A stretch of 64,000 bases of DNA from Bacteroidota bacterium (GTDB taxonomy: Bacteria > Bacteroidota > Bacteroidia > Chitinophagales > LD1). The translations under genes were made by a program, and so were the position numbers. The DNA is taken from NCBI GenBank assembly GCA_018267385.1, contig JAFDYN010000007.1, forward strand, positions 1-64,000, read 5' to 3'. Below are positions 33,543 through 60,271 of this stretch, piece by piece. Below the pieces are notes generated by a model. The model searched no databases. It saw only the letters and a program-made list of their open reading frames with translations, and had not been told where the DNA came from. Position 1 is the stretch's first letter. Each line of letters begins with the position of its first letter.

Positions 33543-33544
33543 GG

Positions 33545-34999: not shown

Positions 35000-36549
35000 C
35001 CGAAAGCGGCCGCCAGCTGAGACCGGAGGCTCTCTGTATCTGCCTGATAGAAACTGTGCGCGAGATCTGACGGTGTAGCCCGGGACATCATGACCAGTAC
35101 CTGATCGCGGCGCGGATGTGCCTCTATCATAGCAGCGATCTCTGCCGCCCTGGCTGAGTAGCTGCCCGGATCTGCCTCCGGGCAAAAATCAAAGTAACAG
35201 AGAATGACATCCTGCAGGCTGCCGGGCGGCGTAGCGACAAAGAGATTGGCCAGACGATTGAGCAGTGCTACTTCCTTGTCTACATAGGCTGTGCCACTCA
35301 CCTCTGCGAGTGCGCGGAGCTTATCTTTGATCTCCTGCAGGCTCCAGGTGCCGACCTGCTCTCTGATGAGCGGCACCTCCATAGCCGTATATACCGGTGC
35401 GTCTGTGGCTTGTAGCGTTTCCTTCTTCTCCGCCAGCCAGCCCTTTAGCATCAGGATGAAGTCAGCATAGGCCCTCACACTGAGCCGGGCCGGAGAGGTG
35501 GCGCCTCCGCTCACGGCAGGCAGGGGGTATGCCTCCAGCGTGCTGATCACATGCTGCAGATAGGCCTGAGACTGGTCGCGCAGAGAGTATTCTGATGGTG
35601 AGAAAACGGCGTTAAAGTAAAGCGCGATGTCTCTATCGAGGCAAAACCTGAGCATCTCGGGTAGCTCCTGCCAGTTGTATGTAATAGGGCAAGCTGCCAG
35701 AGATAGAAATGTCTTTTTGCGCCGTGTATAGTCTCGAAAGTACTCAAGGTTTTCCATCACTTTCTGGTAGTTGCCATTCACCCGTATCTTGCGGTAGGTA
35801 TCCGGATTGACAGAGTCTATGGATAGTATTATGCCTGCATTGAGTCCATCCAGCAGGTCTTTGATCCGCCGGTTGAGAAAGGTAGCATTGGTAGTGATGT
35901 GTATGCGGATGCCGGGGTTGATCTGGCGTATACGCTCCCATATCCTGAGATAGATATCTATCATAAAGGGCTCTCCGCCCAGAAACTTGGCATCTGTCAG
36001 GTGCGGGATAAACTCCTCCAGCTCATCTACAAAGCGGTCGTCATACACCATCGGTACCGGTGGCAGCTTCTCGCGGTTTTTGCGGATACTGGAGGAAAAG
36101 TAGCCGTTGCACATCACGCACTCCAGGTTGCACTCATTGCTCAGCTCAAACTCCATGACCCTGGGGTATGGCTGCCGGCCGCGCATCTTGCGGTACCAGC
36201 GCTGTACGGTGGCCATCGGACCTCCGGGGGCATACTCGTCATAGTAGTGTGCACGTACACCCTGATAGTTTCCGGAGGTGATCATGTGGCCGCACTCTGC
36301 GCAGCCGCCGCCCAGATCATGGTGGGCTATATAGTCTCGGAGCTCCTGTGCCGCAGCTCCCTGCCACATATCCTGCAGTGTCTGCTGTGGCCATATACCG
36401 AGGCTGTGTTTTGTATTGTAGCAGCAGGCACGTACGTTACCGTTTTGCTCAAAGTTCAGATTGACATACGGAGCATGGCATACCAGAGACCGGTCTGTGC
36501 CGGTGCGGGATGCATTGTAGGCGCTGATGATGCTGTCCGATAGTTTCAT
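34996..36549 (-). CDS. Radical SAM protein with N-terminal twitch-like module (3 of 3)
   Basis: A 517-aa paralogue on the opposite strand. The core motif is CNLECVMC (Cys140, 144, 147), then KFLGGEPFMI and HITTNATF. N-terminal module cysteines are Cys24 (CHAPY), Cys42/43 (ACCYN) and Cys83/86 (GCAEC), with SGNYQGV after them. All three paralogues share the SS-x-IRKNR-x-LP-x-P block after the core motif. It is the last gene of a minus-strand operon (methyltransferase, UbiA, glycosyltransferase, this gene; gaps 1, 2 and 8 nt), which ties this enzyme to lipid or glycan building steps. Confidence 0.85.
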   Translation of the reverse strand: MKLSDSIISAYNASRTGTDRSLVCHAPYVNLNFEQNGNVRACCYNTKHSLGIWPQQTLQDMWQGAAAQELRDYIAHHDLGGGCAECGHMITSGNYQGVRAHYYDEYAPGGPMATVQRWYRKMRGRQPYPRVMEFELSNECNLECVMCNGYFSSSIRKNREKLPPVPMVYDDRFVDELEEFIPHLTDAKFLGGEPFMIDIYLRIWERIRQINPGIRIHITTNATFLNRRIKDLLDGLNAGIILSIDSVNPDTYRKIRVNGNYQKVMENLEYFRDYTRRKKTFLSLAACPITYNWQELPEMLRFCLDRDIALYFNAVFSPSEYSLRDQSQAYLQHVISTLEAYPLPAVSGGATSPARLSVRAYADFILMLKGWLAEKKETLQATDAPVYTAMEVPLIREQVGTWSLQEIKDKLRALAEVSGTAYVDKEVALLNRLANLFVATPPGSLQDVILCYFDFCPEADPGSYSARAAEIAAMIEAHPRRDQVLVMMSRATPSDLAHSFYQADTESLRSQLAAAFG

Positions 36550-36557
36550 GATCTGGA

Positions 36558-38561
36558 TTACCTGTTGAAGATAGTAAACCTGCGCAGGAGCTGGCTATGG
36601 CGGGCCGTATTGAGCAGTTCTGCCGCACGTGATTCTGGCACTGCTGCCAGCTGATAGCTGCGCAGCAGGCGGGCCAGCGCCGAGCGGTAGTAGAAGCTGC
36701 TCCTGCTTACGTTTTGCGTACGCCACTCTTCATTCTGCCAGTGTATGAAGTACCACTGCGGCGGCAGCTCGGCATCGGTCCATATATAGCGGCTCGTGCT
36801 ATCCCAGCGGTCTTGATTGCTCACTCCTCGCACGATATATTTATCCAGGCCCAGCCGTGTGATATTATCGTTCAGGATATTGATCGGCTTATGCCAGTCT
36901 GTATTGTGCTCGGTGACCTGCTCTATGGCCTCCTCGTAGCAGCGGAGCATCAGCTCTGAGTGTCGTGGACACTTCATCACATTGCCTACCACCTTCAGCT
37001 CATGATGCTCACGAAAGAAATAGGCCTGCGCGAAGTCCAGCGGCCTGAGACAGGTCACATCCATATCTGCCCACCAGCCACCTTTGTCATATAGTAGCTT
37101 GTAGCGAAATATATCAGAAAAGCCTGCATAGCTGCCCTGTCCGTGGCCATACGCGTTTTTGTGGCGATAGGAGAAAACCCGCTCGCGAGGGATGATCTCA
37201 TTAGCATCGCCTATGATCACTCCATCGGGCAGGGACGTTTGCAGGGGATCATACAACCATAGTTTGTAGCGATAGCCAAATGATAAAAACGAGCGGATAG
37301 TGAGCAGCTCCAGCGCACTGAGCGTAGAGCCGATCCATAGACCATTGATGGTCTGGCTGTCCGGATCTACCTCTATACCTGTGGCGCGCTCTACCGCCTG
37401 CCACACATCCCACCTTTTGTCTGCCCAGTGATGGTAGATATGCGCCAGCACCGGACGTATCTCTGCCTGCTCCTTTTTGAGCCGAAAGACCAGGTCGCCC
37501 AGGTGGTCTATATTGCGGTGCATATAGTCGGCTATCAGGTTGTAGCGGCGGGATAGCATCGGGTGGTGCTGCAGACCGTACTCCCAGGCCGTAGCGATCA
37601 GTGTGCCCTGGTCCCGCGTTTTCCAGCCCGGGAGGTCAAATATTTTCATGGTCTTGTCATGCCATGATTGCAAAAAATCGCTGCTGGTATCATCAAAGAG
37701 GAAGACACCCCCATTCCAGTGCTGCCACTGCGGATCACTTACCTCTATATTGAAAACCTGGCGTATAGCCTCTATGAGGTGTGTACACCGCGCATCAAAA
37801 ACATCCAGCCCATCGCGCGTCCAGATGCCACCGCGGTCAGCCTCGCAGCGGTATGGTGTGGTGAGCTCTATCATCTCTACAGAGCTCAGCACCGGATTCT
37901 CATAGAGTATGGGAGCGCCGGTACGGTCATGCCAGTAGTGTTCCTTTTTATTGAGAAAAGTATCCTGATCCAGCTTGAATATTTTGCGTGCTGCATTAAA
38001 GCGAAGCGACAGGACCGCATATCTGAGTTTATCTTTTCTTGCCTCGTCCAGGTACTTCAGCAGCCGTTCTTTTTTTTCTGCATCCTCGGGCTGGCGTATG
38101 AGGTCTTTATATACCAGGAAAAGCTCCTTTAGCTCCTTCTCCCATGCATTGAACTTCTCTGTGCAGCCACAGCGCATGGCAAACGGACTGAACTGATCTG
38201 CTACACAGTGGTCCGGCGCAAATGTGACAGGGCTGACGTACTGGTCAAAGATCTCATCTACCCCATCGCGCACGGCTACGACGTCGGTATCCAGATAGCA
38301 ATACAGGGGCCCTGACGGCAGGAAACGATGCAAGCCGGTCTTGAGGTAGATGCTGGCCTGGTGGTGGTCATAGTGCTCAGGTGTGCGGATATCTATGACG
38401 TGTGGATGAGAAACGGGCACTTCGTTTCGACTGCTGTCGGTGACCACCCACAGGGGGTGCCGGGTGCGCGCAGCGAGCGCGGCCAGGCTATAGTGCAGCG
38501 TATCTATATGCTCCTGCGCTCCGCATACTACAAAAACGAAAACTTTTTCCTGGTGCTGCAT
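36558..38561 (-). CDS. Two-domain glycosyltransferase (two DxD sites)
   Basis: A 667-aa protein with two glycosyltransferase-like halves. The N-terminal half (about 5-350) resembles GT8-type enzymes: YCYLDTDVVAV with a DxD at 91-93, then HWNGGVFLF (281-289) and DQGTLIATAW (about 317-326). The C-terminal half (about 405-620) resembles the DxD sugar-transferase (GT32-like) family: LWIGSTLSALELL, YDPLQTSLPDG, FRYKLLYDKGGWWADMDV with a second DxD at 499-501. The ATG at 38561 is preferred because it lies 2 nt after the UbiA stop. It is probably cytoplasmic and adds two sugars in sequence; donors and acceptor are unknown. Confidence 0.75.
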   Translation of the reverse strand: MQHQEKVFVFVVCGAQEHIDTLHYSLAALAARTRHPLWVVTDSSRNEVPVSHPHVIDIRTPEHYDHHQASIYLKTGLHRFLPSGPLYCYLDTDVVAVRDGVDEIFDQYVSPVTFAPDHCVADQFSPFAMRCGCTEKFNAWEKELKELFLVYKDLIRQPEDAEKKERLLKYLDEARKDKLRYAVLSLRFNAARKIFKLDQDTFLNKKEHYWHDRTGAPILYENPVLSSVEMIELTTPYRCEADRGGIWTRDGLDVFDARCTHLIEAIRQVFNIEVSDPQWQHWNGGVFLFDDTSSDFLQSWHDKTMKIFDLPGWKTRDQGTLIATAWEYGLQHHPMLSRRYNLIADYMHRNIDHLGDLVFRLKKEQAEIRPVLAHIYHHWADKRWDVWQAVERATGIEVDPDSQTINGLWIGSTLSALELLTIRSFLSFGYRYKLWLYDPLQTSLPDGVIIGDANEIIPRERVFSYRHKNAYGHGQGSYAGFSDIFRYKLLYDKGGWWADMDVTCLRPLDFAQAYFFREHHELKVVGNVMKCPRHSELMLRCYEEAIEQVTEHNTDWHKPINILNDNITRLGLDKYIVRGVSNQDRWDSTSRYIWTDAELPPQWYFIHWQNEEWRTQNVSRSSFYYRSALARLLRSYQLAAVPESRAAELLNTARHSQLLRRFTIFNR

Positions 38562-38563
38562 AT

Positions 38564-39688
38564 TTACCTTTGATGCCTGTGCATCCTCCTGCGTATATAG
38601 CCGAGGGCATCTGTCTGCTCCTTGATCAGATCGATGCCGGCCAGGCGAAATATAAGATAGATAAGCCAATTGCCCGCGAGCCTCACCCTGTCGGCTACCG
38701 CCACCAATGCCCTACGCACGGCTGCGGCATAGTGTGCCCACGGGATACTGTGATAGAGCTCAGACACGATAGCACGTGAAAATAAAATACCGTGTAAAGG
38801 TATCAGCAGCAAATAGCGGATATCCTGACAGGCCAGGAGGATGATAAATGTGTATGGCAGCCACTGGTCGTACAGGATATTGGGATAGTACCGCCTGTAG
38901 CCATCGGTCTCGGGCATACGCGCACAGACCAGTAGAGATAGTGCCACAGCGGGTAGAGCCCAGACAAAGGAATGCCGGGTGGCGCTGCCATACACCAGCA
39001 GTGACACCAGGAGCAGCAGCTCAGCTATGCGCAGGCGCTGCAGTAGTACAGCGGAGATACCTCCCCGCCGTGTGGCATAGGTGATGGTACCACTGCGGGT
39101 GTCGTGGCCGATATCATCCTGCTGGTGCAGGAGTACATTGCGCAGGCCGGCTGCCAGCTGCCAGCCCAGCAGCAGGCCTAAGAACATCAGGTCTGGCCGC
39201 GCCCCGGAGAGCAGCATATAGGTATAGGTGGCCATCATAGCCGGGATGCCATGGGCATATAGCGCATCGACCAATATGCCGGCCGCGCCCCGCTCCTTCA
39301 GACGCAGCGGAGGCGCAGAGTAGACCAGGTATGCCAGTAGCTGACCCGCCATCAGGCACAGGGTATAGAGATCCCATGGAAGAAAGTACCACGGCGCTGC
39401 GAGCAAAAAGACAGCTACGAGCAAAAGGCCGGCCTGCTCTGCGACACCCTTGCCCAGCAGAAAATTCTTCTTGCCGGCCAGGCGGTCAGAGTCACGATCG
39501 AAATAATCATTCAGCAGATAACCAAGAGCGGCAAATCCAATAATAGTGCACATGGAGCACGCAGCCCACAGTGCAAAAGAGCCGAACGCAATGCCAAATA
39601 GCGCCGACAGCATATATACCATGCCCATGAGCATAGAGGCTTTGCCTATCCACCAGTCTTCTGCCCTAAAGATCTTGCCAGCCTTCAT
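38564..39688 (-). CDS. UbiA-family prenyltransferase
   Basis: A 374-aa integral membrane enzyme of the UbiA superfamily with about eight or nine helices. The first aspartate motif NDYFDRDSD (60-68) and second motif DDIGHD (191-196) are both present, as are YSAPPLRLKERG (123-134) and LRNVLLHQQ. Members transfer a prenyl or polyprenyl-type chain to an acceptor such as an aromatic ring, or a phosphoribosyl group to decaprenyl phosphate. The acceptor here is unknown. The C-terminus extends about 90 residues past the usual core with more hydrophobic helices. It sits between the methyltransferase (1-nt gap) and the two-domain glycosyltransferase (2-nt gap), suggesting formation of a lipid carrier or lipid-linked product. 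Confidence 0.85.
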   Translation of the reverse strand: MKAGKIFRAEDWWIGKASMLMGMVYMLSALFGIAFGSFALWAACSMCTIIGFAALGYLLNDYFDRDSDRLAGKKNFLLGKGVAEQAGLLLVAVFLLAAPWYFLPWDLYTLCLMAGQLLAYLVYSAPPLRLKERGAAGILVDALYAHGIPAMMATYTYMLLSGARPDLMFLGLLLGWQLAAGLRNVLLHQQDDIGHDTRSGTITYATRRGGISAVLLQRLRIAELLLLVSLLVYGSATRHSFVWALPAVALSLLVCARMPETDGYRRYYPNILYDQWLPYTFIILLACQDIRYLLLIPLHGILFSRAIVSELYHSIPWAHYAAAVRRALVAVADRVRLAGNWLIYLIFRLAGIDLIKEQTDALGYIRRRMHRHQR

Positions 39689-39689
39689 T

Positions 39690-40565
39690 TTACTGCGGCC
39701 TGTTCAGGAAATACAGATGCTTCTCCTTATTGATATCAAAGGGAGGTTTCATCACTTTGACCTCGTAGAAATCTATAGGGAATACGTAGTCCTCCCATGA
39801 TATTATTTTGCCGATGTCAAAGAGGTTCTGAAAGTCATTGGATATAGTGAGGTGCTCAAACTCTTCTGTCCTGATCTCAGGTGTCTTGACAAAGAGAAGA
39901 ATAAAGTTGAGCCTGCGGATGGTCTTCATCACTTCTGTGAAATCGGCTACATTGTAGGCATAGGCCTGATTGATAGCTGCGATGATATTGTCTATGCGCC
40001 TGCCGTCTTCTGCATTGGGATGCTCCCTGCGAAAGAGGTCCTTGATATAAAGTATGCCACCGGGCTTGAGTACTTTATAGGCTTTCTCTATTAGCAGATT
40101 CTGATCCGGAGAGTGTCCAAACGACTCCAGGAATAGTACACGGTCAAAAACATTTTCGCCAAAGAGCTGATCTATATCATGGTAGTCTCCTTGCCTGATG
40201 GTCACCGTGCCTTTGAGTGTTTTGTCTGCGAGGATCTCTTTTGACTTTGCTACCTGATAGTCTGAGATGGTCACACCGGTGATATCTGCCTGCAGACGTG
40301 AGGCAAAGTATGACGCAGGACCGCCTACTCCGCAGCCCGCATCCAGTATGCGCTGGCCATCTCTCAGCTCGGCGCTCTGTATGGTATAGTCCAGATAGTC
40401 AGTCACTTGGTTGGTACGGAAGGCCTGTATGACCTCCCCGTATACCTGCATGAATTTATCTGTGTTGTTATTGTAAAAATTTCTCACCTGTTCCACGCCA
40501 GTAGGCGGTGTAGGGGGCGCGGTCGCTGCAGGGCGCGGCCAGAGCTTGGAAAATACAGATAGCAT
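39690..40565 (-). CDS. SAM-dependent methyltransferase
   Basis: A 291-aa class I methyltransferase. The SAM-binding motif I ILDAGCGVGGP (73-83) is of the type seen in tocopherol, sterol and other small-molecule C- or O-methyltransferases. Further marks are GVTISDYQVAKSKEIL (about 96-111), the post-I acidic site RQGDYHDI and LKPGGILYIKDLF (about 166-178). It starts with a short amphipathic segment (LSVFSKLW) and a proline/threonine linker (residues 10-22), which could tether the enzyme to the membrane. It is the first gene of the minus-strand operon and diverges from the PhyH operon with about 95 bp between starts. Confidence 0.82.
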   Translation of the reverse strand: MLSVFSKLWPRPAATAPPTPPTGVEQVRNFYNNNTDKFMQVYGEVIQAFRTNQVTDYLDYTIQSAELRDGQRILDAGCGVGGPASYFASRLQADITGVTISDYQVAKSKEILADKTLKGTVTIRQGDYHDIDQLFGENVFDRVLFLESFGHSPDQNLLIEKAYKVLKPGGILYIKDLFRREHPNAEDGRRIDNIIAAINQAYAYNVADFTEVMKTIRRLNFILLFVKTPEIRTEEFEHLTISNDFQNLFDIGKIISWEDYVFPIDFYEVKVMKPPFDINKEKHLYFLNRPQ

Positions 40566-40619
40566 AGCGTGTGTAAGATATAGAAAATGACGCTATGTAG
40601 CCTGAGTGGTGGCGGCTTT

Positions 40620-40627
40620 TACTTTTG
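40620..40627 (+). promoter_or_regulatory. -7 box before the PhyH operon
   Basis: TACTTTTG matches TAnnTTTG exactly and lies 33 nt before the ATG at 40661, which supports that start over an in-frame ATG at 40634 that would coincide with the transcription start. No clear -33 TTTG is visible. Confidence 0.4.
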
Positions 40628-40660
40628 GGTGAAATGGATTACATTTCATATCGTGATGCG

Positions 40661-41542
40661 ATGAGTACAGTAGCACCCATATTTATAGATGCAGAGCTCC
40701 AGCGGCAGTTTGACAGAGATGGCTATGCCAGGATCAAAATACTGGATGAGGCGCAGACGCGCGAGCTGAGGGAGTTTTTCATGGCTACCCAGCGGGAGCA
40801 CGAGGCGGTAAACAGCCTCTATCAGTCTACCACGCACACCAATGATCCCGACCTGATACGCAGGGTAGATGACAAGATCCGCTCTGTGATGGCACCGGAG
40901 CTGCCGCGGTTCTTTCAAAACTATGAACCGATGATGTGTACGTACATCACCAAACAGCCGGGAGAGGGATCAGATACGCGCATACACCAGGACCCTACAT
41001 TTGTAGATGAGCAGAAATATGTCACAGCCAATATATGGGTGGCGCTGCATGATATCAACCATGATAACGGCAATATGTTTTTCATACCTGGTACGCACAG
41101 GTATATGCGCTCGCTGCGCGTGACACCCGTGTGCCCCTCTGCGTATGACGGGGTCTTTGACCTGCTGCGGGAAAACATAACAGAGGTGCCGGTACAGGCG
41201 GGAGAGGCGATAGTGATCAATCATGCCGTGATGCACGGTGCCACGCCCAATCTCTCCGGTGGCCCGCGCATGGCAGCAGTGATGGCCATCCGGTCTGCGG
41301 GTTCTGAGCTTATCTTTCACTACCTGGAGCCCGGTGCACCTACTGACCGCATAGAGCAGTATAGCTTTGATATGGATACCTTCTTTCACCTCAAAAGAGA
41401 CGGCAGGCCGGACGAGTCGCGCTTCCTGCGCTATATATCCTGGGACTTTCCACAGATCACGAGAGATGATTTTCTGGCACAAATAGGAAAGCTACGCCCC
41501 AAGGAAAAGCGCAAATCATGGTTTGAAAAAATATTCAGCTAG
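40661..41542 (+). CDS. PhyH-family dioxygenase 1
   Basis: A 293-aa Fe(II)/2-oxoglutarate oxygenase of the phytanoyl-CoA dioxygenase (PhyH) family, which hydroxylates aliphatic carbons. The iron triad is intact: His109 and Asp111 in IHQDPTFVDE and His192 in VMHGATPN. Arg203 is placed to bind 2-oxoglutarate. The family strand NMFFIPGTHR is present. It ends in a basic, amphipathic tail KSWFEKIFS shared in character with its paralogues. The start at 40661 matches paralogue lengths and the promoter position; 40634 is the alternative. It is the first gene of a ten-gene operon and overlaps the next gene by one base. Confidence 0.85.
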   Translation: MSTVAPIFIDAELQRQFDRDGYARIKILDEAQTRELREFFMATQREHEAVNSLYQSTTHTNDPDLIRRVDDKIRSVMAPELPRFFQNYEPMMCTYITKQPGEGSDTRIHQDPTFVDEQKYVTANIWVALHDINHDNGNMFFIPGTHRYMRSLRVTPVCPSAYDGVFDLLRENITEVPVQAGEAIVINHAVMHGATPNLSGGPRMAAVMAIRSAGSELIFHYLEPGAPTDRIEQYSFDMDTFFHLKRDGRPDESRFLRYISWDFPQITRDDFLAQIGKLRPKEKRKSWFEKIFS

Positions 41543-42405
41543 TGGCGGTACACCCCATTTTCCGAGCGCAGGAGCTACAGCATGAGTTTGATAGAAATGG
41601 ATTCGTGCGGCTGCCACTACTCACAGAGGAGCAGGTGGATGCCCTGCAGCGATCATATGATACCCTGGCTGCTGCACATGAGCGGATCGGCCTGCCCTTT
41701 ACCACTACCAGCCATAGCAATGACCATGAGCTGATACGACAGGCAGATCAATATATAGCAGACGTGATGGCACCCGAGATGGACAGAGTGCTGTGTGACT
41801 ATCAGCGGCTTTTTGGCAATTTTCTGATCAAGCAGACCGGCAGCGAGTCAGCTACACCGCTCCACCAGGATACCACCTTTGTAGATGAAGACCGCTACCG
41901 CAGTATCAGCGTATGGGTCTCTCTCGTAGACACAGACCGTACTAACGGTTGTATGCGCTTTGTGAGAGGCAGCCACCTGTTCACCCGCTTTCTGCGGCCT
42001 ACACATGGCTATGCCTGGCCCTATGAGCCGGTGCGTGCAGAGCTGGAGGGGATGCTAGAGGACTATCCATCGCGCAGGGGGGAGGCCTTTATCTTTGACC
42101 ATGCGGTCATACATGCCTCTCATCCTAACCTCACCGGCCAGCCTCGCGTAGCCGCTGTCATGGCGGCCTACCCGCAGGAGGCAGACCTGCTCATGTACTA
42201 TGCGCAGAGTGACCCGCAGCAGCTGGGCAGGTACATCATGAGCAGAGAGGCATACCTGAGATTTGTAAAGGGAGAAGCCCCGCAGGCTACACTGGCCGGG
42301 ATAGTACCGGCAGACCACAGCCCCGTGACTGCAGCAGCACTAAGGCGTATGACCGCCAAACCAATGTCCCTGCTGGACCGCCTGAGAGCGGCGCTGCACT
42401 CCTGA
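41542..42405 (+). CDS. PhyH-family dioxygenase 2
   Basis: A 287-aa PhyH protein closely resembling the first, for example HSNDHELIRQADQYIADVMAPEM versus the matching segment upstream. The triad is His108 and Asp110 (LHQDTTFVDE) and His191 (VIHASHPN), with Arg202 for 2-oxoglutarate. The start is a GTG overlapping the preceding TAG (TAGTG), so translation is coupled. The C-terminus SLLDRLRAALHS is amphipathic and basic. It is probably cytoplasmic at the membrane face. It arose by tandem duplication with gene 1; the substrate is unknown. Confidence 0.83.
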   Translation: MAVHPIFRAQELQHEFDRNGFVRLPLLTEEQVDALQRSYDTLAAAHERIGLPFTTTSHSNDHELIRQADQYIADVMAPEMDRVLCDYQRLFGNFLIKQTGSESATPLHQDTTFVDEDRYRSISVWVSLVDTDRTNGCMRFVRGSHLFTRFLRPTHGYAWPYEPVRAELEGMLEDYPSRRGEAFIFDHAVIHASHPNLTGQPRVAAVMAAYPQEADLLMYYAQSDPQQLGRYIMSREAYLRFVKGEAPQATLAGIVPADHSPVTAAALRRMTAKPMSLLDRLRAALHS

Positions 42406-42435
42406 GAGCTTATTTTTTACTGCTATATTGTGCAC

Positions 42436-43245
42436 ATGGAGCCACTGATCATCACGGCAAAACCCATATCACAGACAGAATACTGGAGGCGGCTGATCCG
42501 CTACCGCAGCCTCATCTGGATATTCGCCTGGCAGGAGCTAAAGGTGGCGTATGCGCAGACATACTTCGGACTGCTATGGGCTGTGCTCAGGCCGGTTATT
42601 ATCTTATCTATTTTCACCGTGCTCTTCGGCTATCTGCTGCACATAGAGACCTCCTCTCCCTACCTGCTTTTTGCTTTCTCCGGTATGATCGCGTGGAATT
42701 TCTTTTCGCAGATAGTCACTACTGCATCTGTGGCCATCACAGACCGGCAGGACCTGATCCGGCGCATGTATTTTCCCAGGCTCATACTGCCGCTATCCAA
42801 GGTGCTGATAGCCGGAGTAGAGACGGTGATCTCCCTGCTGCTGCTGTTCATTTTTATGGTAGTGCTGCGATATCATGTGTCATGGCACCTGCTGCTGCTG
42901 CCGTTTTTCATAGGTATGAATGTGTGCCTCGGCTTGGCGGTATCTCTCTGGCTCACGCTGGCCAGTGTGCGCTATCGCGACCTACACCAGGTAGTGATGC
43001 CACTGATCAGTATAGGCATCTGGGTCACACCGGTATTCTTTCCCCGCACGATCATTCCTGATGCATATCAGTTTCTGCTTTACTTTAACCCGATGGCTGC
43101 TATCATAGCGGGCTACCGCTATGCCCTGCTGGGAGAGCCGGTAGATGGGTGGTACTGGCTCTCATATGGCGTGGTGGCGGTGCTGCTGGCTATAGCCGTC
43201 CTGCTGCTGGCGCGCGCTGAGGATGATATAGTAGACTATGCCTGA
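42436..43245 (+). CDS. ABC-2 type permease of polysaccharide exporter (Wzm-like)
   Basis: A 269-aa integral membrane protein of the ABC-2 family with six helices. The N-terminal cytoplasmic helix ending in KVAYAQTYFGLLWAVLRP (about 37-54) is the hallmark of Wzm/TagG permeases that export O-antigen, teichoic acid or capsule linked to a lipid carrier. RQDLIRRMYFPRLILPLS and NPMAAIIAGYRYALLG fit the same family. The ATG at 42436 is used; a GTG six bases upstream is also open. It lies 30 nt after PhyH 2 within the operon. The ATPase partner (Wzt), usually adjacent, is not found in this window. Confidence 0.88.
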   Translation: MEPLIITAKPISQTEYWRRLIRYRSLIWIFAWQELKVAYAQTYFGLLWAVLRPVIILSIFTVLFGYLLHIETSSPYLLFAFSGMIAWNFFSQIVTTASVAITDRQDLIRRMYFPRLILPLSKVLIAGVETVISLLLLFIFMVVLRYHVSWHLLLLPFFIGMNVCLGLAVSLWLTLASVRYRDLHQVVMPLISIGIWVTPVFFPRTIIPDAYQFLLYFNPMAAIIAGYRYALLGEPVDGWYWLSYGVVAVLLAIAVLLLARAEDDIVDYA

Positions 43246-43312
43246 GCATGGTGAGATAGATCAGCACAGGGCACACTATTATTTTGTATCTTAGCAAGAC
43301 AAGGTTTGCACT

Positions 43313-44230
43313 ATGCGAAGAGTACTGAATGATGATGCACTGAATGCCGAATTTATAAAGAACGGGTATGTACGCGTACCGTTCATCTCTCCGGAGGAGG
43401 TGGCTTTTCTCAAACAGAATTTCTTTGATACCCTGCCGCATAGTGGCGGCCAGATCACGGCGGGTGAGACCGGTGTAGACGGCACGCCGCTGATCACATA
43501 CGACTTCACATTCATAGACAAGAATGTAGAATACAAAAAAATGGTGTTTGACGCGATCACAGCGCGCTTCAAAAAAAAGATGGATGAGCTGCTGGCAGAC
43601 TATCGCCCCATCATAGCCAACTATATCAGGAAGCAATCGCAAAATGGCGAGGTGCCACTGCATGAGAACTGGGCATTTGCAGATGAGCGCAAATGCTACA
43701 CCGTGTCTATCTGGTGCCCTCTGGTAGACTCTACTGTAGCCAACGGCACCCTACAGGTGGTGCCGGGCAGTCACAAAAGGTTCGGTGAGGTGAGGGGGCC
43801 TATGATACCGTGGGAGCTGGATAATGTAAAGCAAGAGATCATAGACAAATACCTGGTGCCGCTGGAGACCAAAGCCGGAGACTGTGTGATACTGGATGAT
43901 AGTATAGTGCATTACTCTGCCCTCAATAAAACCAACGACCTGCGACTGGCCATACAGCTGATCTGCATACCGGCAGAGATGCCATCTATACACTACCACA
44001 TGAATCCGGCAGTGAGCCAAAACGAAGTAGAAGTGCTGGAGGTAGATGTGGACTTCTATATGCAGTTTAACCCATGGAAAAACCCGGGCGCTGTGAAGCG
44101 GCTGCGCACTATACCCTATCAGTACAGGCCTATAGATGCGAAGGAGTTTGCACAGCGGCTGAGAGGACCTGCCTATGATGAGCCGCAAAAGAAAAACCTG
44201 ATATCCAGGATCAAAGAGGTATTTGCCTGA
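43313..44230 (+). CDS. PhyH-family protein 3, with altered iron site
   Basis: A 305-aa PhyH-family protein in which the first iron motif reads LHENWAFADE instead of the HxD form. His117 is kept but Asn119 replaces the Asp ligand. Distal His200 (IVHYSALN) and Arg211 are present. Asn at this place would weaken iron binding, so it may be a non-catalytic partner or use the metal differently. It is the most diverged of the set, with an insertion around 43-65. The tail NLISRIKEVFA is amphipathic and basic like the others. It lies 67 nt after the permease and 23 nt before the tandem-domain gene. Confidence 0.8.
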   Translation: MRRVLNDDALNAEFIKNGYVRVPFISPEEVAFLKQNFFDTLPHSGGQITAGETGVDGTPLITYDFTFIDKNVEYKKMVFDAITARFKKKMDELLADYRPIIANYIRKQSQNGEVPLHENWAFADERKCYTVSIWCPLVDSTVANGTLQVVPGSHKRFGEVRGPMIPWELDNVKQEIIDKYLVPLETKAGDCVILDDSIVHYSALNKTNDLRLAIQLICIPAEMPSIHYHMNPAVSQNEVEVLEVDVDFYMQFNPWKNPGAVKRLRTIPYQYRPIDAKEFAQRLRGPAYDEPQKKNLISRIKEVFA

Positions 44231-44253
44231 TCGCTACAGTATAATACTCCGGC

Positions 44254-46182
44254 ATGCTATTTAAGGATGAAAAATTACAGCGCCAGTTTGACCTGCAGGG
44301 ATATGTGGTCGTACCCTTTCTGCCGGAGGTAGATGTGGCAGAGCTGCGCAGTTTGTTTTTTGCATCCTACCCTGATCCGCCGGAGGGATTCTACTCCAGC
44401 AGCTTTGACGCCGATGAGCGCAAGCGTATCTCGCTCAATGAAAAGATAACAGCAGTAGTAGACAGGTATGTGCCGGAGCGGTTCGGCGAGATCAGGAAGC
44501 TGGGCAGCTGTTTTCTCAATAAGCAACCCGGTGCTGCGGGAGAGATGCCCATACACCAGGACTGGACCATGACCGATGAGCCGGCTCATGACAGCGTGAC
44601 CATCTGGATACCACTGCAGGATACCGATGAGACCAATGGTGCGATACAGGTGATAGACGGCAGCCATCGCTTCTCAGGGGCGCTGAGGGCACCCTCACTG
44701 CCGGATCCTTTCCGCGAGGTGCAGAGCGAGCTGCGGCAGGACCTGAAAATACTGCGCATGAAAGCCGGTGAAGCATTCATATTCTCTCATGCGCTGCTGC
44801 ATGCCTCGCCTCCCAATACCGGAGCATCACCACGCGTAGCTGTGACCTATGGACTCACGGCTGCAGATGCGCCGTTGTTATTCTATCACCACGAGGCCGG
44901 GGGGCAGACAGACCGCTATGCTGTGGAGGCAGATTTTTTCCAGCGGTATAACAGGCAGATAGGCAGCAGGCCCGATTTCGGCCATGTGACGGCCTCACTG
45001 GACTATGAGCAACACTTTGTGACAGCTGCCGAGTACCGGCAGATGAAACTAAATTTCCTACATCAAAAGTCAGAAGCGATGTATAAAATGATCCCGATAT
45101 TCCGTGACAGGGCTATGCAGGCCTCTTTTGAACAAGAAGGCTATGCAGTATTTCCGCTACTGGGCCCGGATGAGATAGAAGAGCTGAAGCAGTATTATTT
45201 CTCCAAGCATATTAAAGATGACCGCGGGTTTGGTTTTCATGTCAGCATGGACCAGGCAGACAAGGAAATGTGTCGTGAGATCAGGGAGAAGATATGGGGT
45301 GTGGTGATGCCAAAGCTCAATGAGCACCTGGAGAAATTTAAACCCTTTGTGGCCAGCTACGTGGTCAAAGAAGTAAACCCTAAAGGTGTAGTTCCCGCAC
45401 ACCAGGATTGGAGTTTTGCAGATCGTGAGGAGGATGGCTACTGCTCTATCACCTGCTGGATAGCACTGGTAGATACCAATATAGACAATGGTGGCATGGG
45501 CGTGATCCGGGGCAGCCACAAGTTTATGATGAACCACCGCCCGTCGCCCTCGCCGCAGTGCCCTGTGCCACTGAGCGATCATATGTTCAGCATATTCCCC
45601 TACCTGCATACCATAGATATGAAGGCTGGAGAGGTGTTGATGTTTGACAACAGGACCTTTCACGCATCTCCGCCCAATGTATCTGATGGCGTGCGCCTGG
45701 CAGTAGGAGTAGGAGTGACACAGGAAGACGCCGACCTGGTACACTACTATATGAGGCCGGATGGCACCTTCCGGACTATGCTGCGCTACAATGTAGATAC
45801 AGACTTCTACCTCAGATACGACAACTCTGCTCTGGCGCGCCTCTATGATGCCGGTGGTGTGATAGAAGGGTACGGTACACCGACAGAGGTGTCGTACGAC
45901 TTCACCCGATACACTACCGATGAGCTGCTGGATGTGATGAAGGCCGCAGGCAACACCTTTAATGTGCCGATGACGGAAAAGCTAGCGAAGATATTTGGCA
46001 ATATGTCTGCACCGCAGGAGCAAAAGCAGGAAGAGCCGGCCACCGTGCAGCCACCTGACACTGCCGCCACAGAGCCACAGCCCGAGCTGCCTGCACCATG
46101 GGTAGATACGAGGACATTTGCCGAAAAATACACGCTGAAGAATATAGCCAAGGAAATAAAAATGAGGCTGGTAGGAGCCTGA
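44254..46182 (+). CDS. Tandem PhyH-family dioxygenase (two domains)
   Basis: A 642-aa protein with two full PhyH domains in one frame. Domain 1 (about 1-275) has His101/Asp103 (IHQDWTMTDE), His183 and Arg194. Domain 2 (about 278-570) has His383/Asp385 (AHQDWSFAD), His470 and Arg481. A linker rich in Pro, Glu, Gln and Ala (about 585-620) leads to a terminal segment KNIAKEIKMRLVGA, the same kind of amphipathic tail as in the single-domain paralogues. Both sites look active, so it could perform two oxidations on one substrate. There is no internal stop or frameshift; the fusion joins what are separate genes on both sides. Confidence 0.85.
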   Translation: MLFKDEKLQRQFDLQGYVVVPFLPEVDVAELRSLFFASYPDPPEGFYSSSFDADERKRISLNEKITAVVDRYVPERFGEIRKLGSCFLNKQPGAAGEMPIHQDWTMTDEPAHDSVTIWIPLQDTDETNGAIQVIDGSHRFSGALRAPSLPDPFREVQSELRQDLKILRMKAGEAFIFSHALLHASPPNTGASPRVAVTYGLTAADAPLLFYHHEAGGQTDRYAVEADFFQRYNRQIGSRPDFGHVTASLDYEQHFVTAAEYRQMKLNFLHQKSEAMYKMIPIFRDRAMQASFEQEGYAVFPLLGPDEIEELKQYYFSKHIKDDRGFGFHVSMDQADKEMCREIREKIWGVVMPKLNEHLEKFKPFVASYVVKEVNPKGVVPAHQDWSFADREEDGYCSITCWIALVDTNIDNGGMGVIRGSHKFMMNHRPSPSPQCPVPLSDHMFSIFPYLHTIDMKAGEVLMFDNRTFHASPPNVSDGVRLAVGVGVTQEDADLVHYYMRPDGTFRTMLRYNVDTDFYLRYDNSALARLYDAGGVIEGYGTPTEVSYDFTRYTTDELLDVMKAAGNTFNVPMTEKLAKIFGNMSAPQEQKQEEPATVQPPDTAATEPQPELPAPWVDTRTFAEKYTLKNIAKEIKMRLVGA

Positions 46183-46208
46183 TAGCGGATCAAGAAAAAG
46201 TAAAGCGA

Positions 46209-47180
46209 ATGTTCAGTTTCCCGGATAAGATGATGCCTGTTTTCAGAGAGGAGAGCCACCAGGCTTTCTTTGAGAAGAATGGGTATGTTATTCTGCCTTT
46301 TTATGATGCCGCAGAGATCAGAGAGCTGGAGGCCCTCTATCATGAGCTGCACCCCAGGGATGAGCATGGCTTTTTTCCCAGCACTTTCTCGCATGACAAA
46401 AACTACAGGCAGGTAGCGGACCGCGAGATCAGGAGGATATGCCAGAGGGGCATAGACCTGTACTGCCAGGATGTGAAGGTGATGTGCGGTGCCTTTATAG
46501 TGAAGACGCCGGGGCCGGAGAGCGCCATGTGCGTGCACCAGGATATGAGCCTGGTAGATGAGAGCCGCTATACGGGTATCAATATCTGGGTACCGCTGTG
46601 CGATCTCTCTGTGACCAATGGTACACTATTCGTACTGCCCGGCAGCCACAGGCTGATGCCCACCTACAGAGGCAGCAGCATACCGGAGTTTTTCTCACCG
46701 GTCATGGATGACATGATAGACTACATGGTGCCCGTAGAGATCAAGGCAGGTGAGGCCGTTTTCTTTGATCAGAGCATCATTCATTATTCTCCGCCCAACT
46801 ATTCTGACCGGATCCGCATCGTGACGAATACTTACTTCACTCATAAAGATGCAGCATTCCGTACCTACTATTGGGATGAGGCATACGGCGGCAAGGTGGA
46901 AGCGTTTGCACAGAATGATTCCTTCATGCTGGATTTTGAGCAGTTTGGCGATAATATCCGCGACCGGCCAAAGGTGGGCGAGTCTCTCGGCCTCGTGGCG
47001 TATGATTTTCCTAAGATATCCAAAGAGTACCTGGCGGAGCGGTTTCGCCCTACCGGAGCGCGCGAGATGATCAGGAGTGCAGTACCACCACAGCCGTCGG
47101 TGCCGGACAGCAGCCATACTGCCGGCGAAGAGGCCCCGAGGAAATCTATCTTGCAACGCATCAAAGAAATGATCAGCTGA
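46209..47180 (+). CDS. PhyH-family dioxygenase 5
   Basis: A 323-aa PhyH protein with intact His110/Asp112 (VHQDMSLVDE), His192 (IIHYSPPN) and an Arg at about 203. The strand LFVLPGSHR is conserved. The C-terminal 40 residues form a flexible Pro/Ser/Ala linker followed by KSILQRIKEMIS, an amphipathic helix. The ATG at 46209 is chosen because the frame upstream overlaps the preceding gene and has no family features. The TGA overlaps the ATG of the next PhyH gene (TGATG), showing coupling. The substrate is unknown. Confidence 0.85.
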   Translation: MFSFPDKMMPVFREESHQAFFEKNGYVILPFYDAAEIRELEALYHELHPRDEHGFFPSTFSHDKNYRQVADREIRRICQRGIDLYCQDVKVMCGAFIVKTPGPESAMCVHQDMSLVDESRYTGINIWVPLCDLSVTNGTLFVLPGSHRLMPTYRGSSIPEFFSPVMDDMIDYMVPVEIKAGEAVFFDQSIIHYSPPNYSDRIRIVTNTYFTHKDAAFRTYYWDEAYGGKVEAFAQNDSFMLDFEQFGDNIRDRPKVGESLGLVAYDFPKISKEYLAERFRPTGAREMIRSAVPPQPSVPDSSHTAGEEAPRKSILQRIKEMIS

Positions 47181-48091
47181 TGTCAAAGAGGATCTTCCGG
47201 TCAGCAGCGCATCAGGAGCTCTTTGACAGGCAAGGCTTCATCGTCCTGCCATTTGTCAATGCAGCAGAGGTGGCACAGCTCAATAGTTTATTTGATACGC
47301 TACACCCTGACATCGGGCAGAGTGGGTTCTTTAGTGGTAGCTACAGCGCAGATTTTGAATACAAGAAAAAGGCGAGCGACGAGATCGTAAAAGTCTTCAG
47401 CCGTGCTTACGAAGACCTCTTTATAGACTATACTCCCTTTGGGGGAGCTTTTTTATACAAAGTGCCCGGTGCCAATAGTGCACTGGCAGCACATCAGGAC
47501 TGGACCATAGTAGACGAGCAGGAGCATGTAGCGCTAAACTGCTGGGTGCCGCTGCAGGACATCACCGCGGATAACGGACCGATCATGATACTGCCGGGTA
47601 GCCAGTATGACAATTTCAATGTGGTGCGCGCGCCTACATTGCCGTTTTTCTTTTCGGGAAACGAAGATGTGATACACCCCGAGCTGATACCGATGATCGT
47701 ACCGGCGGGTACTGCGGTGATCCTCAATCAAAGTGTGATACACTACTCTCCTGACAATAAAAGTGCGGAGGTCAGGCGTGCTATCACCGCAGGTGTCAAG
47801 AGCGCAGGAGCCAGGATGAAGTTTCACTACCGGGTGCCGGGCAGGGATGCGCTGGAAGTCTTTGATATGGAAGATGATTTTCTGATCAGCTTCCGTGATT
47901 TCGCCCGGGATATAGGCCAGCGGCCGTATCTCGGCACCTATCAGGGAGAGATCCCCTACACGATGCCGCAGCCTGACAGAGAGCGGCTCAGGCAGATGAT
48001 CTCTGATATGAAAACCCGGGCAGGATACAGTATGAGCCAGCCACCACGCAGTATGATGCAGCGGGTACGGTCCTGGCTATCCCGCGTGTAG
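47180..48091 (+). CDS. PhyH-family dioxygenase 6
   Basis: A 303-aa PhyH protein: His105/Asp107 in AHQDWTIVDE, His188 in VIHYSPDN and Arg199. In the strand IMILPGSQ the usual His of PGSH is Gln, a small departure near the active site. The N-terminal RIFRSAAHQELFDRQGFIVLPF closely follows the family pattern. The tail SMMQRVRSWLSRV is basic and amphipathic. The ATG shares a base with the previous stop. After it the operon has its longest gap, 75 nt, before the Gfo/Idh/MocA gene. Confidence 0.85.
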   Translation: MSKRIFRSAAHQELFDRQGFIVLPFVNAAEVAQLNSLFDTLHPDIGQSGFFSGSYSADFEYKKKASDEIVKVFSRAYEDLFIDYTPFGGAFLYKVPGANSALAAHQDWTIVDEQEHVALNCWVPLQDITADNGPIMILPGSQYDNFNVVRAPTLPFFFSGNEDVIHPELIPMIVPAGTAVILNQSVIHYSPDNKSAEVRRAITAGVKSAGARMKFHYRVPGRDALEVFDMEDDFLISFRDFARDIGQRPYLGTYQGEIPYTMPQPDRERLRQMISDMKTRAGYSMSQPPRSMMQRVRSWLSRV

Positions 48092-48166
48092 GGACTCTGA
48101 CTTTCGTCTTCACTTTTTGATAGTATTGTATTATTTTGAAATGCGAACAAAAGGCAGCCGCTGTCA

Positions 48167-49216
48167 ATGACAGATGACAAGATCAACATAGGCCTGATAG
48201 GCTACGGATACTGGGGTATCAACCTGCTGCGCAATATCGTGCAGCACGGCGCATCGGGCCGTGTGGTAGTCTGTGATATAGATCCGGACAGGCTGAGGGC
48301 TGTACAGTCAGTATATATCAATCTGGAAACCACCACAGACCCGGTAGCAGACATCTGGCTCAATGAAGAAATAGATGCTGTGGTCATAGCCACACCCACC
48401 TCTACCCACTACCGCCTGGTCAAAGAAGCGCTGCTGCATGGCAAGCATGTACTGGCGGAGAAGCCTCTGGCTACCTCTGTGGCAGAGGTGGAGGAGCTGA
48501 TCAGCATAGCCGCAGCGCGTGGCCTGATACTGATGGTAGACCATATCTACCTGTACAACCCCGTAGTACGCCAGCTAAAGAAATATATCACGGAGGACTT
48601 TCTGGGGCGGATCAACTATATAGACGCCACACGCATCAACCTGGGCATCTATCAGGATGATGTAAATGTGCTCTGGGACCTGGCCTGTCATGACATCTCC
48701 ATTATCAACTACCTGATAGACGAAAGGCCCCAGTCGGCACGGGCCATAGGCAAGCTCAACTTTAACAGTAAGGTAGAGGACCTGGCCTATCTCTTTCTGG
48801 AGTACAGGTCTGGCCTGCTCATACAGATCAATGACTCGTGGGCCTCTCCGGTCAAGATCAGGAAAATGATCATAGGCGGAGAGAAGAAGATGATCATCTA
48901 TGACGATATAGAGTCTACCAATAAACTGGTGATATACGACTATGTCAATAACAACGCACCAGACCCTACCAAGAGCCGCCTGATAGACTACCGCCTGGGA
49001 GATATCACGATACCCAAGTATGAGATCACAGAGCCGCTGAGCAATGTGATAGCGGAGTTTTATGACTGCGTACGTACCGGCCGCACACCATTATCAGATG
49101 GTGTGAACGCGCTGGATACTATACGGATACTGGAGAGGGCCGAGCACTCGCTCCGCTCAAATAGCGCTAAAATACCTGTAGATGGATCTATCTATCATCA
49201 TCTTCTGCTACAATGA
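48167..49216 (+). CDS. Gfo/Idh/MocA-family oxidoreductase A
   Basis: A 349-aa NAD(P)-dependent dehydrogenase of the Gfo/Idh/MocA family, which oxidises or reduces sugars, often nucleotide-sugar intermediates. The nucleotide-binding motif is GLIGYGYWGINLLRN (about 9-23), the signature EKPLAT (about 99-104) contains the family Lys, and the substrate-side LWDLACHDISI (about 167-177) holds the catalytic-region His. The C-terminal half is the typical beta sheet. The 3' end overlaps the next glycosyltransferase gene by 35 nt. A mirror-image pair with the same gene order lies on the other strand at 50781-52495. Confidence 0.88.
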   Translation: MTDDKINIGLIGYGYWGINLLRNIVQHGASGRVVVCDIDPDRLRAVQSVYINLETTTDPVADIWLNEEIDAVVIATPTSTHYRLVKEALLHGKHVLAEKPLATSVAEVEELISIAAARGLILMVDHIYLYNPVVRQLKKYITEDFLGRINYIDATRINLGIYQDDVNVLWDLACHDISIINYLIDERPQSARAIGKLNFNSKVEDLAYLFLEYRSGLLIQINDSWASPVKIRKMIIGGEKKMIIYDDIESTNKLVIYDYVNNNAPDPTKSRLIDYRLGDITIPKYEITEPLSNVIAEFYDCVRTGRTPLSDGVNALDTIRILERAEHSLRSNSAKIPVDGSIYHHLLLQ

Positions 49217-49916
49217 GCATGGCACCATAGCGCATGTAGCAGCTGAGGCCCGGCAGCTGGCTATAGCTATGGGCGGCAGCAGCGAGGTGATAGCTGTGGA
49301 TGATGGTAGTGATGACGGCACCGCAGAGATACTGGCCGCAGAACCCGATATCAGGTATATACGCCACGCGCAGAATCAGGGCATAGGTATGGCCCTCCGT
49401 ACAGGCTATGCTGCTGCGCGGTGTGAGTACATCTGTGCAGTGCCCGGAGACGGGCAGTTTGACGTCAGAGAGCTGATGCAGGTGCAGGCATTCGGGTTTG
49501 ATGCTTTCTACGCGCTGTACAGGCCGCAGGCAGACTATGGCCCCTACAGGGCGCTACTGACACGCGTCAATAGATTTTTCAATAAGCACCTCCTCGGACT
49601 GGATATGAAAGACGTGAACTGGATCAAGGTATACCGCAGGGACCAGCTGGACTATGTCAAGCCGGAGCTGCAAAGCTCCATAGTAGAAAGCGAGATCTGC
49701 AGCAAGCTGCAGAAGGCCGGGATCCGACCCATAGAGCTGCCATCAGCATACCACAGCCGCACATCTGGCGTAGCCAAAGGTGGAAACTGGAAAACACTAC
49801 GCAAGGCTATCATGGAGATGTGGACGCTATACACCGTCACGGAGCGCTTTGCACGCAGTATAAAAATCAAAAATGACAGCAGTGGACAGCCACTGGCCTG
49901 GATCAAAGAAAAATAA
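49182..49916 (+). CDS. Glycosyltransferase family 2 protein A
   Basis: A 244-aa GT2 enzyme. The opening LSIIIFCYNEHGTI, nucleotide-sugar site VIAVDDGSDDGTAE (about 36-49), NQGIGMALRTGY (about 65-76) and AVPGDGQFD, which supplies the DxD-equivalent, are typical of dolichyl-phosphate-mannose-synthase-like enzymes that charge polyprenyl phosphates. No C-terminal membrane helix is evident. It starts inside the preceding dehydrogenase gene (35-nt overlap) and shares a base with the next PhyH gene. It probably transfers a sugar whose precursor the dehydrogenase modifies. Confidence 0.87.
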   Translation: MDLSIIIFCYNEHGTIAHVAAEARQLAIAMGGSSEVIAVDDGSDDGTAEILAAEPDIRYIRHAQNQGIGMALRTGYAAARCEYICAVPGDGQFDVRELMQVQAFGFDAFYALYRPQADYGPYRALLTRVNRFFNKHLLGLDMKDVNWIKVYRRDQLDYVKPELQSSIVESEICSKLQKAGIRPIELPSAYHSRTSGVAKGGNWKTLRKAIMEMWTLYTVTERFARSIKIKNDSSGQPLAWIKEK

Positions 49917-50779
49917 TGAAACCGATCATCAAAGACCTGCAGCTCGACGCGCGGCTACTCTCCGAGGGATATATCGTAGTTCCCTTCCTGACAGGGGCCG
50001 AAGTAGAAACGCTCAAAAAGATCTACTATCAGCATCACGCTCAGGCGCTGGATGGCATGGCCGCCACAGCGCACCTGCCGGACCTGGATATGCGCATGAA
50101 GATGAATGATGCAGTCAAGGAGGTTTTTCGCCGGGCGATAGATGAAAACATGATCAACGCCAACCCACTGGGCGGTTCATTCATAGCCAAGGGCAAAGGC
50201 CAACGTGGTACCCTCTCGCCGCATCAGGACTGGAATATAGTTGACGAAGACCTCTACCGCTCTTTCAATATATGGGTGCCGCTGGTAGACCTCACAGCCG
50301 ACAACGGTGCTATATGTATCATGCCGCGCAGCCACACCTGGATACCATCCTACAGATCTGCTAATATCCACTCCCTGTACAATCAAGTGGAACAGCAACT
50401 CTGGCAGGACATGACACCGCTATATATGCGTGCAGGAGAGGCGCTGATATATGACCACCGCCTGATACACGCCTCCGGCGAAAACCATACGGATGAGATC
50501 CGCCTCGCAGCAGTGTATGGGGTGATACCGGCAGGTGCCCCGATGTACTACTACCACCAGAAGGACGAGCAGACTATAGAGGTCTATGCCTCTAACAAGG
50601 AATTCTTTCTCTATGAAAATATATTTCAAGGACCCCGGACGCTGCAAAAAATAAGCGAGGCTCAGTACTCGTATGCACCGGTCACACCTGATCAATACAG
50701 CAGGCTCCGGTCAGGGCAGCCGCTACAGCAGCAGCCGAGAGGAGCCTTGGAGCGCGTGCGTCAGTGGCTCGGCCTATGA
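49916..50779 (+). CDS. PhyH-family dioxygenase 7
   Basis: A 287-aa PhyH protein with His103/Asp105 (PHQDWNIVDE), His185 (LIHASGEN) and Arg196. The strand motif is IMPRSHT, so the usual Gly before Ser is Arg. The tail GALERVRQWLGL is amphipathic. The ATG overlaps the preceding TAA. It closes the ten-gene operon and ends one base before the stop of the convergent minus-strand glycosyltransferase. Its place after the dehydrogenase-glycosyltransferase pair suggests a sugar- or glycolipid-linked substrate. Confidence 0.85.
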   Translation: MKPIIKDLQLDARLLSEGYIVVPFLTGAEVETLKKIYYQHHAQALDGMAATAHLPDLDMRMKMNDAVKEVFRRAIDENMINANPLGGSFIAKGKGQRGTLSPHQDWNIVDEDLYRSFNIWVPLVDLTADNGAICIMPRSHTWIPSYRSANIHSLYNQVEQQLWQDMTPLYMRAGEALIYDHRLIHASGENHTDEIRLAAVYGVIPAGAPMYYYHQKDEQTIEVYASNKEFFLYENIFQGPRTLQKISEAQYSYAPVTPDQYSRLRSGQPLQQQPRGALERVRQWLGL

Positions 50780-56917: not shown

Positions 56918-56959
56918 GCTGTAAAATAAATGATTTCCATCAGTTTTTGATCAATGCTG

Positions 56960-58558: not shown

Positions 58559-58639
58559 ATCGGGCTATTCAGGGCTGCACCTTTTTTTAGCTGCAGCCGC
58601 GATATTATTTATTAGTCAAAAAATCAGTTTTCCAGGTGA

Positions 58640-60187: not shown

Positions 60188-60271
60188 GCTGCTGTGGGTA
60201 ATAACACTAACTGGCAATCCGATAATTAATACATAAAAACCGAAATAGCAAATCCTATGTTCGGCGACGCA

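Follow-up and report, generated by a model that had tools for sequence, protein, structure and literature searches.

An ordered block of PhyH-type oxygenase genes with a Wzm-like permease gene in a glycan-gene-rich island of a Bacteroidota genome

In Wzm/Wzt-type O-antigen pathways (Aquifex structure 8dku), a permease and an ATPase transport a lipid-linked glycan made in the cytosol, often recognizing a modified terminus; the usual caps are methyl- or phosphate-type (PMC9445017). There are precedents for a single oligosaccharide pathway employing several PhyH-type oxygenases: the orthosomycin enzymes EvdO1, EvdO2, EvdMO1, and AviO1, and HygX. Those pathways make secreted antibiotics of actinomycetes and lack an ordered conserved block with Wzm, and the sources on them note no member with an HxN iron motif. 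Here, we describe a locus in a Bacteroidota bacterium (GenBank assembly GCA_018267385.1, contig JAFDYN010000007.1) that encodes eight PhyH (phytanoyl-CoA dioxygenase-like) domains beside a Wzm-like permease. The window, that is, the whole stretch analyzed, comprises positions 1 to 64,000 of this contig (C25:1-64000, C25 being the contig numbering used here) in a 4.55-Mb assembly of 27 contigs.

With the Wzm/Wzt pathways the locus has in common a Wzm-like permease, a Wzt-like ATPase with an extra C-terminal region, glycosyltransferases and, as proposed from the genes, a glycan modified in the cytosol ahead of export. It differs in its ordered five to eight PhyH domains and in that the Pfam Wzt_C domain is not reached. 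We consider it somewhat probable that the locus is the oxidative tailoring part of an ATP-binding cassette (ABC) transporter-dependent surface-glycan pathway.

The oxygenase array and its conserved block

Seven intact plus-strand genes with eight PF05721 (PhyH) domains span positions 40625-50779 (profile matches E 7e-18 to 3e-43), scoring 66 to 149 bits against a curated cut-off of 22. We named the domains P1, P2, P3, P4a, P4b, P5, P6, and P7 along the window, P4a and P4b belonging to one gene (Table 1). A preliminary description of this DNA had listed these genes together with a permease, a dehydrogenase, and a glycosyltransferase, all of which are confirmed by matches to PF05721, PF01061, PF01408, and PF00535. 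The end that it gave, 50779, is correct, whereas its start, 40661, falls inside the feature, as P1 has its first in-frame TTG at 40625 and an ATG at 40634. The single operon that it assumed is plausible as one transcript, because the genes lie on the same strand with gaps of ≤75 bp and several neighbors overlap. At 40594-40627, directly ahead of P1, the sequence matches a Bacteroidota-like promoter with a single mismatch.

As had also been reported, seven of the eight domains (P1, P2, P4a, P4b, P5, P6, and P7) carry the HxD..H iron ligands and the 2-oxoglutarate (2OG) Arg; P3 has HEN..H with the 2OG Arg. None of the eight domains in the window has a halogenase-type site.

The phylogeny proposed in the preliminary description was computed with FastTree (400 PhyH domains) and IQ-TREE (76 domains). 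In the latter, P3, P4a, P4b, P5, P6, and P7 each form one clade (SH-aLRT 98-100) with members from several families, and P1, P2, and P9 form a separate clade (support 98). The widest P3 and P6 groupings are weakly supported at the base in the FastTree tree; the trees do not settle the deep branching among the PhyH clades, and the placement of outgroups is unsafe given the long branches. Iron and 2OG residues are retained in almost all clade members. Because each domain of the block is its own clade across families, the block paralogues appear to be old, with distinct roles. A single clade arising by recent local duplication was ruled out by the trees. Of the single paralogue array described earlier, the ordered neighborhood thus holds, but the one-family origin does not: the array is best read as two modules, a P3-P7 block behind the permease and a P1/P2 pair of another clade. 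Likewise, mostly inactive remnants, an outcome that had been named as damaging to the earlier proposal, were not what we found, the sites being intact and P3 being a conserved HxN variant.

The order permease-P3-P4-P5-P6-P7 recurs in relatives and in named genome contigs. Among 35 scored loci, 31 were free of inversions; with two uninformative loci (L020 and L087) set aside, the block is colinear in 29 of 33, from several families of Bacteroidota, and loci merged with named contigs supply additional colinear cases. The exceptions are three loci with P4 ahead of P3 (L077, L078, and L081) and one with an extra P3-like gene (L045). The search for this gene order in other Bacteroidota, also suggested earlier, thus returned an ordered block in relatives rather than scattered singletons. 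Since the genes flanking the block vary between loci, it is retained or transferred as a unit. The carriers are mostly metagenome-assembled genomes labeled Chitinophagales, Flavobacteriales, Crocinitomicaceae, Saprospiraceae, Sediminibacterium, or Fluviicola; the labels Verrucomicrobia, Chryseobacterium gleum, and Bifidobacterium breve probably reflect errors of binning or naming.

Neighbor counts per 33 loci come from stretches often interrupted by contig ends. The permease accompanies the block in 22/33, and the recurrent neighbors are a methyltransferase, a UbiA-family gene, GT2d, and GNAT. The dehydrogenase is inserted into the block here, accompanied by the GT2 gene, and the same pair is found in L016, L020, and L030. 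In related genomes, P1 and P2 are found together with genes of the WelO5-like, P8, and Wzt-like types (L022, L026, L029, L030, and L031).

Neighboring domains are fused in many loci: P4a with P4b in most, P3 with P4b in seven, and P5 with P6 in two; P8a+P8b and P8b+P7 fusions also occur. In addition, many core proteins terminate in a short basic amphipathic tail. In the alignment, P4b has a variable linker and then a conserved KYTPxNIxREIKxRL-type tail; in the AlphaFold2 (AF2) model of P4a/b, residues 583-618 have pLDDT <50 and residues 628-640 form a low-confidence helix. Of 337 PhyH proteins, 45 have the tail pattern, which is absent from all other genes of the loci; a looser second pattern is present in 56 PhyH proteins plus three others. 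These counts are descriptive and no test, as the patterns were defined after inspecting the sequences. Over their last 18 residues, most PhyH groups have a median net charge of about +3 and P3 one of 0.5, compared with +1 in unlabeled neighbors. The tails would be explained if the proteins shared a docking partner or attached to the membrane. In one locus (L058:9995-14869), P4b, P5, P6, and P7 end in an almost identical tail, YTPxNIxREIKxRxTG, as if it had been copied between genes or served a common docking partner.

P3 and its HxN iron site

P3 carries HEN where the other domains of the window carry HQD. Both His residues, the Asn, and the 2OG Arg are invariant in all 31 aligned P3 sequences. 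All 51 HxN sequences of the P3 group fall into a single clade (support 0.999) that contains no HxD member; another HxN sequence, in L066, has a separate origin. Four of the 51 come from actinobacterial-type loci, including that of IMCC26207, where the HxN gene adjoins HVD and HQD paralogues. A scan of the phylum with the P3 profile matched 2 of 296 genomes at 1e-30, the second of which (G115) carries HQD and is thus not a P3 orthologue; true P3 is rare in this flat genome sample.

The AF2 model of P3 (pLDDT 91.5) resembles SnoK, SnoN, PHYHD1, EvdO2, MysH, SyrB2, and others. SnoK and SnoN, the nogalamycin carbocyclase and epimerase, are the best structural matches (Foldseek 4e-12; Z 18.6), but they share only ~18-20% identity with P3 and, as HxD enzymes, act in aromatic polyketide biosynthesis. 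By sequence, the best Protein Data Bank match of the P3 profile is PHYHD1 (2opw, 1.7e-10). PHYHD1 and its bacterial relatives strip 2'-O-methyl groups from nucleosides (PMC12709175) and so bring sugar O-methyl chemistry into the same family; they differ in being single HxD enzymes of nucleoside breakdown, with neither array nor exporter. Profile and model also match EvdO2, AviO1, HygX, and EvdMO1, as remote similarity only (EvdO2 2e-7). P3 departs from the HxD/E...H iron ligands of PhyH Fe(II)/2OG oxygenases, Asn replacing Asp; we class it as a PhyH-fold homologue and as a putative oxygenase only.

Two explanations of the HxN site were rejected. A decayed remnant is ruled out by the invariance of all other site residues, and a standard Fe/2OG halogenase by the Asn in all members, none having Gly or Ala at the Asp position. 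P3 probably owes its conservation to a function, as either an oxygenase whose iron site is 2-His-1-Asn or a non-canonical partner of P4b. The latter alternative, in which P3 would form a heterodimer with P4b and assist it without catalytic activity of its own, HxN marking lost chemistry, falls in our estimate just short of an even chance. Its precedent is the pair TlxI/TlxJ, a non-catalytic and a catalytic subunit of the same fold with a fused homologue, TalA (PMC12141560, PMC11880133), and the P3 model matches TlxIJ with Z 16.7. The fusions speak for a P3/P4b partnership, and the two are adjacent in nearly all other loci. TlxI and TlxJ are, however, fungal meroterpenoid enzymes, and TlxI lacks the 2OG Arg, whereas in P3 it is the Asp ligand that is missing; P3 retains the Arg and both His residues, which a silent subunit would not need. 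A helper role is compatible with glycan tailoring by the locus as a whole and competes on P3 alone.

On the alternative of an active P3, its Asn would serve as, or vacate, the third iron position; in AspH, two His and a water at the iron indicate that a carboxylate is not strictly required (PMC13168262). Such 2-His-1-Asn chemistry, if active, differs from that of carboxylate-ligand oxygenases and of Gly/Ala halogenases. It is a tentative and somewhat doubtful conjecture that the P3 orthologues are an active 2-His-1-Asn Fe(II)/2OG class and one station of a multi-oxygenase assembly making a heavily oxidized, possibly halogenated, surface glycan of a new type.

The surrounding island

A profile search of the contigs of this genome found 17 PhyH domains, 14 of which fall within 62 kb (C25:40625-102391), compared with ~0.2 expected by arithmetic from an even spread; the clustering is not due to chance. 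Glycan-system genes extend ~50 kb beyond the array. The island also holds three Asp/Arg hydroxylase-type genes, a WelO5-family gene, a JmjC/cupin gene, seven radical S-adenosylmethionine (SAM) genes (window 32007-62308), further glycosyltransferases, a carbamoyltransferase, a WbuX-like amidotransferase, and KAS III. This content resembles that of a surface-glycan island with many oxidative enzymes. The DXD glycosyltransferase upstream of the array has the same neighbors in L022, L026, and L034.

Table 1. Features of the oxygenase array and selected neighbors (window coordinates unless marked C25)
Feature	Coordinates	Strand	Matches and remarks
Glycosyltransferase with DXD sugar-binding region	36558..38564	-	PF04488 8.7e-6; accompanies UbiA and methyltransferase
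UbiA-family membrane prenyltransferase	38564..39688	-	PF01040 1e-13; near block in 13/33 loci
SAM-dependent methyltransferase, divergent neighbor	39690..40565	-	PF08241 1.8e-17; homologue near block in 17/33 loci
P1, PhyH oxygenase (HQD..H..R)	40625..41542	+	PF05721 E=4.5e-25; second module, sister of P2/P9
P2, PhyH oxygenase (HQD..H..R)	41542..42405	+	PF05721 5e-26; second module, own clade, support 96
ABC-2 permease, Wzm/KpsM-like	42430..43245	+	PF01061 2.5e-14; opens conserved block
P3, PhyH-fold protein, H-E-N instead of HxD	43313..44230	+	PF05721 7.9e-19
P4a/P4b, two-domain PhyH oxygenase	44254..46182	+	PF05721 two stretches, 3.4e-43; disordered linker, conserved C-terminal tail
P5, PhyH oxygenase (HQD..H..R)	46209..47180	+	PF05721 4.5e-25; own clade 99
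P6, PhyH oxygenase (HQD..H..R)	47180..48091	+	PF05721 7.2e-18; own clade 98
Gfo/Idh/MocA dehydrogenase, UDP-GlcNAc 3-dehydrogenase-like	48167..49216	+	PF01408 4e-24; NF040723 1.1e-44, below cut-off
GT2 glycosyltransferase	49182..49916	+	PF00535 8e-17
P7, PhyH oxygenase (HQD..H..R)	49916..50779	+	PF05721 1.7e-21; own clade 99; closes block
WelO5-family gene beside P8/P9 PhyH genes, outside window	C25:71268-72134 (L009:8268-9134)		PF22814 1e-52
Wzt-type ABC ATPase, 448 residues, outside window	C25:82703-84049		Near block in 15/33 loci

The WelO5-like gene aligns over its full length with the halogenase WelO5 and has the site HCG (HVG in WelO5). Its homologues, near the block in 12/33 loci, are HxG in 11 of 16 and, at variance with WelO5, HCE in 5 of 16. 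Halogenation by this neighbor is a possibility, no more.

Three further features were observed. Three B12-binding radical SAM genes are consecutive on the minus strand (window 55325-60217), with the four others at 32007-36549 and 61244. KAS III, an ArnC-like GT2, GNAT, and a 300-amino acid gene form a conserved module (L010:5256-8822, C25:88256-91822), which adjoins the P3-P7 block in other genomes; family and profile searches gave no identity for the 300-amino acid gene (u300, L010:7920-8822). An inward-rectifier-type potassium channel gene (IRK_C and Ion_trans_2) lies on the minus strand at window 28695-29711.

Proposed export pathway and alternatives

The preliminary description had not made the point that the permease indicates Wzm/Wzt-type export. 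The permease has a PF01061 match above cut-off (ABC-2, Wzm/KpsM/TagG type), and its best NCBIfam matches are Wzm/RfbD (NF050109, 2.3e-14) and KpsM, both below the equivalog cut-offs. A profile of ATPase homologues matches the full-length Aquifex Wzm-Wzt (8dku) at 6e-94, the alignment reaching residue 377 of 404, and also matches the TarH/TagH and RfbE structures. The UbiA-family gene is fused to a GT4 glycosyltransferase gene in L066 and L086; in Citrobacter, a UbiA-family enzyme loads pentose onto polyprenyl phosphate for O-polysaccharide decoration (PMC11127046). The simplest reading of these genes would be cytosolic tailoring before export. A second pair of Wzt-like ATPase and Wzm-like permease genes lies on another contig of the same genome (L012:4984-10658, C26:89983-95657), with the PhyH gene P13 and a B12 radical SAM gene close by.

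The conserved order, separate clades, retained sites, exporter genes, fusions, and tails together lead us to the glycan-tailoring reading. From them we infer a pathway in which glycosyltransferases would assemble a lipid-linked glycan at the inner face of the cytoplasmic membrane, and each specialized PhyH-type Fe(II)/2OG oxygenase, possibly including P3, would perform a distinct oxidation on it. The oxygenases would probably associate with one another, their C-terminal tails keeping them close to the membrane or exporter, and the permease and the Wzt-type ATPase would export the tailored glycan. The PhyH fold hydroxylates, epimerizes, cyclizes, and halogenates. Hydroxylation is only one option, because PhyH relatives catalyze other reactions too; the oxidations might also be of the ring-forming, epimerizing, or O-demethylating kinds known in the fold. 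The stepwise hydroxylation put forward earlier is too narrow for these reasons. A common product remains plausible, as the genes sit with glycan genes; that it should be a large or repetitive molecule was not borne out.

Several points weigh against this pathway. No Wzt_C match above the Pfam cut-off was found in this genome, and the match in L081 (2.5e-4) is below it; the ATPase lies 40 kb from the permease; the tail counts are descriptive; and the oxygenase complexes are proposed from fusions and tails. To our knowledge, no product or enzyme of this system has been described. The island also holds lipid-type genes, and the oxygenases might instead act on the lipid part, that is, on acyl or polyprenyl chains of an exported glycolipid or lipid-like natural product. 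PHYH itself acts on fatty acyl-CoA, and a fatty acid desaturase (52560), LpxO-like Asp/Arg hydroxylase-type genes (60272 and others), and KAS III would suit such a role. However, the neighbors of the core locus that recur are exporter, methyltransferase, UbiA, and glycosyltransferase genes, whereas the desaturase does not recur, the Asp/Arg hydroxylases do so in few loci, and KAS III in 5/33; in addition, the closest solved relatives mostly act on sugars, cyclic compounds, or amino acids. We regard a lipid substrate as unlikely.

Ordinary gene-family growth, in which PhyH genes multiply in the family and the cluster is a loose set of unrelated enzymes, seems very unlikely to us. PhyH genes are indeed abundant, with 3 to 23 matches in 25 of the 29 sampled genomes of the same family, and also in uncultured groups such as Poribacteria (PMC3909097). 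The islands are patchy as well: the remaining family genomes have one match (G006) or none (G014, G015, and G024), and counts are mostly low in the other families of the order. Against mere growth stand one-to-one orthologues, an order kept in differing surroundings, fusions between neighbors, and similar tails.

In the full-text literature searched on PhyH in polysaccharide, O-antigen, or glycosyltransferase clusters, on 2-His-1-Asn/HXN triads, and on WelO5 with O-antigen, which covered few subscription papers, we found no description of this system. PhyH tailoring enzymes in glycan or ABC-export loci are known; the novelty lies in an ordered block of several oxygenase genes that includes a conserved HxN member. 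Both this block and the HxN motif provide simple markers in the search for further clusters and in the choice of cultivable hosts, one HxN gene being present in the actinobacterium IMCC26207. The conserved HxN site offers a natural test case for Fe/2OG chemistry with an amide instead of an acid ligand. If our reading is true, a pathway of wide but patchy distribution, found mainly in uncultured lineages, would use at least five dedicated oxygenases to rewrite one exported glycan, a type of surface polysaccharide chemistry absent from current catalogues.

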